DNA of 38,716 nucleotides from an uncultured Candidatus Saccharibacteria bacterium (GTDB lineage Bacteria > Patescibacteriota > Saccharimonadia > Saccharimonadales > Saccharimonadaceae), in assembly GCA_946560015.1 (NCBI GenBank), contig CAMNUC010000002.1, positions 1 to 38,716 on the forward strand. The letters are read 5' to 3'. The translations under genes and the position numbers were made by a program. Of this stretch, positions 10,325 to 38,437 are shown piece after piece; the first letter of the stretch is position 1; each line of letters starts with the position of its first letter. The notes beneath the pieces were generated by a model that was given only the letters and a program-made list of their open reading frames with translations, was not told the DNA's origin and searched no databases.

Positions 10325-11449
10325 TTAACAAGCATCGATACTATATAGTGCATACAGAGTCACTTCTGGCTGAACTGAGTCTATAGTGATTTGGTCTCCG
10401 GGTTGGTATTTTACGCTTGCAGCATCATAGCCTTTTGGTGTGGTAGACCATGAGTAAAAGGTAGCGTAGCAACTGCCAGCATAGCCTTGAGGGATTTTCT
10501 TATCGCTGATAGTGAAAGTGTGGGAGGGGGAGGTGGTAGTGTAGGTTTGTGTACTTGGCATCGGCATGAGCGTACCACCTCCGTCTACTGCGGTTCTGAG
10601 TCCGTTAGCGTTATAGCTTAGTTTGTATTCGATCGCTGTCACTTCTGCTGGCTCCATTACTAAAGTTAGCTTCACATTGGTAGCATAGTGTCCGCTTTGC
10701 ATGTCTTCACCAAATTTCACAGCAAAGGCTAGTTTACCACTTGTATTTACGGTGTTGTTTGATATGGTGTCAGCTGCGGCGCTTTTGATTACGCTACCAT
10801 TGCCGGCTAGCATGGGCTTGTAAGTCATCGTGTTGCTATCGGTGTTTACGAGGTCACTCCAGCCCCATCCCCAAGTATTAGCTACAAGATTGTCTCCTAC
10901 TACGCCGCTATTGTCTACATTGCCTACACTAATACTGCTATTCTCACTATGGGAAAGGCTGGTGCTGCCGTCGTCGTAGCTGATGCTCATGCTATAGCTT
11001 TTGATGCTGGATCCATTGATGCAGACGGTATGGTTGCTATAAGCGGTTTCTCCTACTTTAGCGTCTACGCTGTCAATAGTTTCTGGAGTGATGGTGAGGG
11101 AGATGTTGCTATCGTTAGAACTACGACCTGAATCGGCGGGTAGCGGTCGTGAGCTGCAAGAATCATACCAGTCATCATCCATGATACCATCGTTAGCGTA
11201 GGCTTGGTTGCTATGACTTGATATAGGATTAATAAAACCATATAAACCAACTAGGAGGGATAGCATACATACACTAGGTACTAAGTAGCAAACTATTTTA
11301 CTACTCTGCTTGGAGGATAGTGCAGAATTCTTCTCTCCCCACCATTTGTAGAAATAAGTACTTTTACTATGAAGCAAGTTATTAATAAAAGTTAGTGATG
11401 GGTGAGACTTAGGACTTATGTTATCCTTCCTTCTCCTTCTTTGTAGCAT
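10325..11449 (-). CDS. Secreted surface protein with InlB-type repeat and conserved KWWGEKNS signal region
   Basis: The 374-aa protein begins with a basic arm (MLQRRRRKDN). A conserved block, LLHSKSTYFYKWWGEKNS, follows at about residues 25-42, then a hydrophobic signal or anchor segment at about 51-72. The mature part is Ser/Thr/Asn/Gly-rich. Its last 80 residues (YKLSYNANG ... FYSWSTTPKGYD ... YQPGDQITI ... TLYALYS) match the InlB B-repeat/Flg_new beta-grasp pattern of bacterial adhesins. There is no LPXTG motif, and the chain ends in Cys. A strong AGGAGGG precedes the ATG. The nearest -10 (11688-11693) predicts a 5' leader of about 230 nt with extensive secondary structure. The paralogue starting at 38438 shares the signal block and the leader architecture. 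An adhesin or cell-envelope role is likely. Confidence 0.87.
   Translation of the reverse strand: MLQRRRRKDNISPKSHPSLTFINNLLHSKSTYFYKWWGEKNSALSSKQSSKIVCYLVPSVCMLSLLVGLYGFINPISSHSNQAYANDGIMDDDWYDSCSSRPLPADSGRSSNDSNISLTITPETIDSVDAKVGETAYSNHTVCINGSSIKSYSMSISYDDGSTSLSHSENSSISVGNVDNSGVVGDNLVANTWGWGWSDLVNTDSNTMTYKPMLAGNGSVIKSAAADTISNNTVNTSGKLAFAVKFGEDMQSGHYATNVKLTLVMEPAEVTAIEYKLSYNANGLRTAVDGGGTLMPMPSTQTYTTTSPSHTFTISDKKIPQGYAGSCYATFYSWSTTPKGYDAASVKYQPGDQITIDSVQPEVTLYALYSIDAC
11324..11376 (-). repeat. 53-nt block identical to 38607-38659
   Basis: This is a perfect 53-nt match, on the opposite strand, to the second surface gene. It encodes the LHSKSTYFYKWWGEKNS region. Identity continues at 65 of 68 positions and then ends sharply. 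Confidence 0.95.
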
Positions 11450-11529
11450 CTAGCCCTCCTTGGTTTGGTTTTGGATTAATTAATCACCCTATGGAGTGCC
11501 AAAGTTTTATTTATATTGCGTCACCGATA

Positions 11530-11681
11530 CAAATAAAAATGGCACCACAGGCATGGTGTCCAAACCTAACCAATCAACTCGTAACTTTCGTCCTCATCAA
11601 CTGGGCCTATGGCGCCATTTGTATAGATGAAAACAAGTTACGGATTAAAAATTTTATTGAATGTAATGTTAGGTTTGGACT
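11530..11681 (-). ncRNA. Structured leader/small RNA, copy 1 (P1-P2-pseudoknot-T run)
   Basis: On the minus strand the predicted transcript start (about 11681) is followed at once by P1, a perfect 13-bp stem: GTCCAAACCTAAC (11680-11668) with GTTAGGTTTGGAC (11571-11559). Nested inside is P2, CGTAACTT (11642-11635) with AAGTTACG (11587-11580), plus TCATC/GATGA. The apical region contains ATGGCGCCA (11618-11610), which can pair over 9 bp with TGGTGCCAT (11547-11539) just 3' of P1. A T-rich run follows. The latter segment can alternatively form a local hairpin with CACCA. The same topology is found at 38142-38272. No known RNA family was recognised. It may be the riboregulatory 5' leader of the 10325-11449 gene or a separate small RNA. 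Confidence 0.65.
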
Positions 11682-11687
11682 AACTTC

Positions 11688-11693
11688 ATTGTA
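11688..11693 (-). promoter_or_regulatory. -10 element for the structured leader and surface gene
   Basis: TACAAT on the minus strand ends 7 nt before the first nucleotides of P1, which makes P1 the 5' end of the transcript. Confidence 0.55.
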
Positions 11694-11741
11694 GCGGATT
11701 ATTCTGCTTTTGGCAAGAGTTGTTATTTTGCGGGAGTGTGA

Positions 11742-38133: not shown

Positions 38134-38139
38134 TATAAT
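38134..38139 (+). promoter_or_regulatory. Extended -10 for the structured RNA, copy 2
   Basis: GTGTGATATAATGAGGG with TTGTAC (38110-38115) 18 nt upstream. P1 of the RNA begins 3-7 nt after the hexamer. Confidence 0.65.
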
Positions 38140-38141
38140 GA

Positions 38142-38272
38142 GGGTGCATACTAAGATGAACAAAATGTTTTTTCTATTGTACGAGAAAATGGCGTCATGA
38201 ACGTCTAATGTGCAATAGAACGTCTTCGGAAGTTTGTTTGTCTTAGGTATGCCCGTTCGTGGCGCCTTTTTT
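38142..38272 (+). ncRNA. Structured leader/small RNA, copy 2 (P1-P2-pseudoknot-T run)
   Basis: P1 pairs 38142-38156 (GGGTGCATACTAAGA) with 38241-38254 (TCTTAGGTATGCCC), with two bulges. It continues after a TG/TG internal loop as AACAAA/TTTGTT. P2 pairs 38172-38182 with 38210-38220 (11 bp, one G-U). A small hairpin with a TTCG loop lies at about 38219-38234. The P2 apical region contains AAAATGGCGTCATGAACG, of which 38191-38203 can pair over 13 bp (two G-U) with 38254-38266 just 3' of P1, followed at once by six T. The order of parts is the same as at 11530-11681, with conserved ATGGCGYCAT and GTGGYGCC. No known family was recognised. Confidence 0.7.
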
Positions 38273-38282
38273 GGTATTAAAA

Positions 38283-38370
38283 AGCGCATCAAGGATAGGA
38301 TAAATCCTCCAATATATCAAATGGTGTAGATACTACACTAAAAGGATGTATTGTTGTGCGCTATTTTTGT
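38283..38370 (+). promoter_or_regulatory. Second structured element in the leader of the 38438 gene
   Basis: Outer stem AGCGCA (38283-38288) / TGCGCT (38357-38362), inner hairpins AGGA-TAAA-TCCT (38297-38308) and TGGTGTAG-ATA-CTACACTA (38322-38340), then TATTTTTG. It looks like a three-way junction followed by a weak terminator. It lies between the ncRNA and the ribosome-binding site. Confidence 0.5.
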
Positions 38371-38437
38371 TACCGCTAAATAAGCGCCCCACGAGCAAAA
38401 AGTTATAACTACTATAAACCAAAAGGAGGGCCATAAT

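Follow-up and report, generated by a model that had tools for sequence, protein, structure and literature searches.

The window, by which we mean the whole stretch of 38,716 nt from an uncultured Candidatus Saccharibacteria bacterium that was analysed, contains a leader element at 11681-11535 of the minus strand, upstream of a gene for a putative exported surface protein. The promoter of this gene is sigma-70-like (10 of 12 matches), and the outer helix of the element, P1, begins 7 nt downstream of the -10 hexamer, approximately at the predicted +1. The perfect 13-bp P1 that an earlier note on this DNA had placed at the predicted transcription start is there, as are the P2 helix nested within it, the T-rich run after the tail and the leader of about 230 nt (11680 to the ATG at 11449). 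The pairing between the apical loop and the tail also exists, but its dimensions had been given as 9 bp beginning 12 nt after P1; we find that the loop L and the arm A form 16 contiguous pairs, with G-U allowed, that A starts 5 nt after P1 and that the L:A helix runs into the T5 run. The arm also contains one half of a local hairpin at 11558-11543. The 171-nt region as a whole folds better than its shuffles (z = -4.0). The coordinates of all features, including those of a second copy in the window, are given in Table 1.

Table 1. Features of the leader element, its gene and the other copy in the window
Feature	Position	Strand	Description
Promoter	11688..11716	-	-35 TTGCCA 11716-11711, 17-nt spacer, -10 TACAAT 11693-11688
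P1 outer helix	11558..11680	-	13 perfect bp; GTCCAAACCTAAC 11680-11668 with GTTAGGTTTGGAC 11570-11558
U-rich internal motif	11644..11652	-	AUUUUUAAU; UUU nearly invariant across the family
P2 inner imperfect helix	11581..11641	-	11641-11626 with 11598-11581
L apical loop	11605..11620	-	AAATGGCGCCATAGGC; 5' half of pseudoknot
A arm	11537..11552	-	GCCTGTGGTGCCATTT; pairs with L (16 bp) or with D
U5 run	11535..11539	-	End of L:A helix
AU-rich extension of A:D	11505..11538	-	UUUUAUUUGUAU 11538-11527 with AUAUAAAUAAAA 11516-11505
D	11487..11502	-	TTGGCACTCCATAGGG; downstream competitor, pairs with A
Ribosome binding site	11454..11461	-	AAGGAGGG; predicted from sequence
Downstream gene	10325..11449	-	374 aa; N-terminal KSTYFYKWWGEKNS, then hydrophobic segment
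Other window copy	38134..38396	+	-10 TATAAT 38134-38139; gene start 38438
Other window copy, helices		+	P1 38146-38164/38233-38252; L 38191-38203; A 38254-38266
Other window copy, 3' part		+	T6 38267-38272; D-like GCGCCCCACGAGC 38384-38396

A DNA search showed that the last 97 nt of the leader are near-identical before several genes of the window's own genome (G000; 831 kb in 54 contigs); the promoter-proximal parts differ and are all of one architecture. A search pattern built from the loop and the arm detected many copies in congeneric species, and the reversed pattern, used as a control, had almost no matches. About 60 loci were retrieved from the pattern matches, and 113 nonredundant copies were collected, one of which (L208, plus strand) probably matched by chance. 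Nearly all of the more than 110 copies come from Candidatus Saccharibacteria. In named genomes most of the matches listed were to members of this group from the guts of sheep, goat, cattle and deer, and few copies occur in the other genera and families of the class. The covariance model R1, built from other genomes only, matches both copies in the window, with 48.9 bits (E = 1.2e-9) for the present one and 19.5 bits for the other (38149-38272, plus strand), which bears out the suggestion of a structured leader RNA with a second copy in the window. The same model finds 14 copies in the window's genome, the other window copy counted, and the most copy-rich genomes carry at least 17 (G282) and at least 15 (G181) distinct copies. 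The loop and tail motif does lie upstream of further members of the gene family, the check that the earlier note had proposed. The peptide KWWGEKNS is confined to the window's genome, matches in relatives being due to chance, and the RNA is therefore far more widespread than that protein type. We also rejected the pattern matches outside Saccharibacteria (Stenotrophomonas, Halomonas, Bacillus and others) and 9 of 10 matches on viral contigs, all of which were short GGTGCC terminators scoring below 28 bits with the model.

An N-terminal hydrophobic segment of the export type is present in 85 of the 90 readable downstream ORFs compared with 11 of 33 window genes, and the downstream proteins are mostly large and secreted, with N-termini conserved within species. 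The window gene had been labelled an InlB-repeat gene, a label that we could not support, as the Pfam search on this gene gave no family even at E = 5; InlB-like repeats are readable in other genes of the set, and a Fib_succ_major domain is weakly matched in one downstream protein. Where the element occurs in other genera and families, the genes after it code for an OmpA-like protein (its Pfam score falls just short of the cut-off), an exported protein that we read as DUF4352-like, and small membrane proteins. The clearest non-surface target is at L273, where the element lies before the gene of a Tsp45I-type restriction enzyme (Pfam E = 7e-100).

Comparison of the copies gives good support to the structure of the leader, that is, to P1 and the L:A pairing. 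We scored 17 pairs of P1 and 13 pairs of L:A in a plain MAFFT alignment (A1) that was not fitted to the structure and that held 61 copies, none from the window's genome. The cells were paired in 97.5% of cases, compared with 80.5% in shuffles and with at most 47.6% when the partner columns were slid by 1-3 positions. Double compensatory changes occupied 289 cells, against 75 in shuffles, although related copies are not independent and the shuffle counts should not be read as probabilities. These changes fell on 18 pairs, and 14 of the 17 consensus P1 pairs showed compensatory changes. The P1 sequences of different copies can be wholly different and yet pairing is kept: the mean duplex energy is -27.5 kcal/mol with a copy's own partner and -12.9 kcal/mol (sd 3.6) when halves from different copies are combined. 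G-U pairs exceed A-C mismatches by 76 to 7 in P1 and by 170 to 17 in L:A, which indicates that the sequence evolves as RNA of the coding strand, unlike a folded DNA site or an operator. The covariation in L:A reaches well past its palindromic core, and even the base preceding the U-run changes in step with its partner in the loop (UA, CG, AU, GC).

The position of the element relative to the promoter and the spacing of its parts are also conserved. A -10-like hexamer is present in 107 of the 113 copies and lies 3-6 nt before the first P1 pair in 94 of them. The U-run has exactly 5 T in 104 of 113 copies (6 T in 6 copies and 4 T in 3), and the run of five is kept even where the loop has no A-run able to pair with it. 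The distance from L to A has a median of 52 nt (sd 4.5), and that on the 5' side is 67 nt (sd 8.5). In most copies the gap between the end of P1 and A is 0-5 nt, so that stacking of P1 on L:A would be possible; if P1 stays intact, the arm would have to fold back in order to form a pseudoknot of 12-16 bp. Outside P1, L and A the sole near-invariant part is the U-rich internal motif, in which two T are invariant and a third is present in at least 90% of the alignment. Its UUU(U) stretch (A1 columns 46-50, window 11652-11644) lies on the 5' side of an internal loop, has no consistent partner and is a candidate site for a protein or a triple helix. Two further ideas were discarded. A helix between the A-run of L and the U-rich internal loop can be seen by eye in some copies and is absent in others, and a hammerhead ribozyme, suggested by GATGAGGACGAAA at 11598-11586, has no match in Rfam, the stretch being the unconserved 3' strand of P2.

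Most copies carry a third segment, D, which is a second complement of A and lies between the U-run and the start codon (for example TAAAATGGCACCGCAAGG). Against shuffled downstream sequence the A:D pairing reaches z <= -2 in 82 of 102 copies (mean z -3.9), and at least 11 of 13 pairs are formed in 60 of 112 copies compared with about 1.4% of shuffled downstream regions, counts that draw on non-independent copies, since repetition of the leader makes many D segments near-identical within a species. D tracks species-specific changes in A, with GCCG in the arm and CGGC in D in one genome (G228) and CCAGGTGG with GGCACCGCCAGGG in another (G271); a conserved A-C mismatch between D and A is retained in many copies. 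In the window D lies about 33 nt downstream of the T run and pairs with A at -18 kcal/mol, and an adjoining AU-rich stretch lengthens the hairpin to about 24 pairs. A sits in the A:D hairpin in the local fold of 11440-11560 (z = -2.2), and the minimum-energy nested fold of the leader contains A:D as well. The L:A helix is computed to be stabler than A:D in 93 of 103 copies. The long AU hairpin was also considered by itself as the function of the downstream leader and was rejected, being an extension of A:D here and missing from the leaders of other species.

Because A is complementary to both L and D, the L:A and A:D helices are mutually exclusive. The earlier proposal of two exclusive states therefore holds in its outline, with D (11502-11487) in place of the adjacent CACCA as the partner of A. 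The proposed CACCA/TGGTG hairpin can form, but as a second state it shows no compensatory change at all, and the four G-to-A changes seen at its first position all break it and leave P1 paired. From the alignments A:D is the better supported second state.

The pairings, their exclusivity and the positions of the promoter and the U-run can be read from the DNA, and the leader may regulate expression of its gene. The mechanism that we favour, to which we give roughly an even chance, is a co-transcriptional switch in which L:A with U5 terminates or pauses transcription and A:D accompanies read-through. Transcription would start at the foot of P1, the element making up the first 150 nt of the mRNA of the surface gene, and P1 and the inner arm would display the loop L. 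The arm A, 0-5 nt past P1, would pair with L in a pseudoknot helix of at least 12 bp that ends at U5. Forming beside the U-tract as A leaves RNA polymerase, this helix would resemble the stem of an intrinsic terminator whose 5' half is held ready in a pre-folded hairpin, and many transcripts would stop or pause at U5. Where L:A came too late, the polymerase would read through and make D, and A:D would then lock A away from L and allow the surface gene to be expressed. The termination, the direction of the switch (which of the two states is ON) and its trigger are what we infer here; the balance might be biased towards L:A by a ligand or protein bound in the U-rich internal loop, by temperature, by the speed of transcription or by chance. 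Two features that mark attenuators with intrinsic terminators are found in this leader, namely a GC-rich helix followed by a U-tract (L:A and U5) and a mutually exclusive alternative helix (A:D). The order of the segments (L, A, U-run, D) means that D cannot compete at the instant of termination, so that A:D, made after the U-run, would have a later role, or else the switch would work on translation or decay. The greater stability of L:A likewise implies that the read-through state would persist only if topology or kinetics decide. Clostridia-type genomes (see below) also carry the element, and a factor private to Saccharibacteria is thus not obviously needed; occurrence in two phyla would mildly favour a mechanism that needs only RNA polymerase.

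A post-transcriptional role is credible although we consider it somewhat unlikely. P1 and the pseudoknot would shield the mRNA from decay at its 5' end, an exchange between A:D and L:A would alter its stability or the access of ribosomes, and U5 would be only a pairing surface. In nearly every copy the first P1 pair falls at the predicted +1, as it would in a 5' stabiliser, the bases of the U-run are able to pair with the A-runs of L and D, and D lies shortly upstream of the ribosome binding site. However, the binding site is not visibly covered in either state, a stabiliser needs no second, exclusive partner such as D, and the length of the U-run is held at five even in copies whose L has no A's. 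We think it rather improbable that the element is a riboswitch for a ligand or protein, in which the arm with its U-rich internal loop would be the sensor and the exchange of L:A for A:D the output. The near-invariant unpaired UUU does suggest a fold beyond pairing, and the L-to-A spacing is more constrained than the 5' side, but apart from that motif the stems and junctions are very variable, unlike those of known metabolite aptamers, and the targets are diverse exported proteins with no pathway that would name a ligand.

It is less probable again that the main product of the element is a stable small RNA, about 150 nt long and with U5 at its end, that acts in trans on the mRNAs of sibling genes through L, A and D with the outcome that few siblings are expressed together. 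Such an RNA would have its 5' end in P1 and a helix with a U-tail at its 3' end, and L, A and D are indeed nearly alike among siblings of one species whose stems differ; cis pairing would nevertheless be closer and stronger, and the repetition of the leaders explains the common A and D equally. A feature of the DNA itself, either attC-like folded single-stranded sites or three copies of an operator with the complementarity as a by-product, is very unlikely in spite of copies at contig breaks and near recombinases and of the near-palindromic GGYRCC core common to L, A and D, since the G-U bias is confined to one strand, where an attC-like site should pair in a strand-neutral manner, the spacing to the promoter and the orientation to the gene are fixed, and the L:A covariation extends well beyond the core.

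We compared the element with known systems. Rfam 15 (4227 models) gave only a tRNA in the window at the gathering threshold, and Rfam searches of five loci at E <= 1 gave one chance match to a microRNA, far below threshold. The literature searched, which covered subscription journals to a small extent, held no such motif for Saccharibacteria. The architecture and the family thus look undescribed in Rfam and in that literature; a leader RNA with exclusive helices is of a known kind. Leader attenuators (trp- and pyr-type, T-box and riboswitch platforms) likewise have a promoter-proximal leader with exclusive helices and a GC-rich helix directly before a U-tract, with the gene further downstream. 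Here, in contrast, the helix that resembles a terminator is formed as a long-range pseudoknot, with its 5' half in the loop of a closed hairpin, and the U-tract comes after the middle one of three competing segments. The window element has no leader peptide, T-box sequence or known aptamer that we could find, and no Rfam match that would place it among the T-box leaders. In the pseudoknot riboswitches (preQ1, fluoride/crcB, SAM-II and ZTP/pfl) a loop also pairs 3' of its own stem and overlaps the expression platform, whereas here the loop-tail helix is much larger (12-16 bp), the stems are highly variable and there is neither an Rfam match nor an associated metabolic pathway. The STAXI motif (Weinberg et al. 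2010, PMC2864571), also a recurring pseudoknot RNA motif from comparative genomics, is repeated in tandem close to DNA-processing genes; the present element is a single unit at the +1 of genes for exported proteins. The attC sites of integrons keep their structure while the sequence varies and are tied to repeated gene cassettes, but strand-specific G-U pairs and the spacing to the promoter and 5' end point to RNA in our case.

Ten of the 14 copies in the window's genome lie at most 600 nt from a contig end (C1, C2, C9, C10, C15, C25, C26 and C39), probably because the repeated downstream part breaks the assembly, and the number of surface genes in this genome is probably under-counted. The repeat consists of the shared leader and the N-terminal coding region. 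A non-coding fragment elsewhere in the genome (L017:1501-1557, G000:C32) is identical to the N-terminal coding repeat CTTGCTTCATAGTAAAAGTACTTATTTCTA and is possibly a recombination scar.

Strong copies (65-98 bits, and one cut-off copy of 46) were also found on rabbit-gut contigs labelled Oscillospiraceae or Clostridia. Seven MAG contigs (L200, L192, L226, L156, L204, L227 and L147) carry the leader with a surface gene. The genomes concerned are of 2-3 Mb, their SecA has 56-60% identity compared with 77% for Saccharibacteria, and the flanks contain serine recombinases and genes without matches in the Saccharibacteria searched, some of the copies lying beside large serine recombinases and defence-like genes. 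Either horizontal transfer between phyla or an unusual mis-assembly would explain these copies; chimeric or mis-binned contigs are a less likely source, as the copies come from seven bins. A further copy (L297:11272-11422, 101.6 bits) is found on an IMG/VR provirus contig, together with a surface gene with InlB-like repeats, next to a tyrosine integrase.

Gene regulation in Saccharibacteria is little known, and these organisms live on other bacteria and need the right surface. With at least 14 copies per genome of about 0.8 Mb, almost all of them upstream of genes for exported proteins, the element would be a main layer of surface control. It would offer a testable RNA mechanism, in which a pseudoknot helix adjoining a U-tract competes with a hairpin further downstream, and it could serve as a marker with which to follow the passage of surface-gene modules into Clostridia and a provirus. 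A wider reading, which we regard as speculative and improbable, is that the pseudoknotted terminator (L:A with U5) and D control a large, recombining surface repertoire whose siblings are cross-regulated, and that the module moves between phyla and into a provirus. If so, the shared L, A and D would let the short leader RNA of one gene act on its siblings, and the choice of the displayed surface protein would be RNA-based.

Some copies depart from the common pattern. Single-copy elements stand before unrelated genes in different species at L263, L265 and L275 (genus g11) and at L272 (another family). P1 is nearly identical in the first three (TGTCTTAAGC...GCTTAAGACA) and more diverged in L272, and an additional crossing helix (CTATGC/GCATAG) may form around the apical loop in these elements. 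At L260:1501-1750 (G279:C5) an inverted and duplicated element upstream of rpsL-rpsG forms a long, near-perfect hairpin with no U-run.
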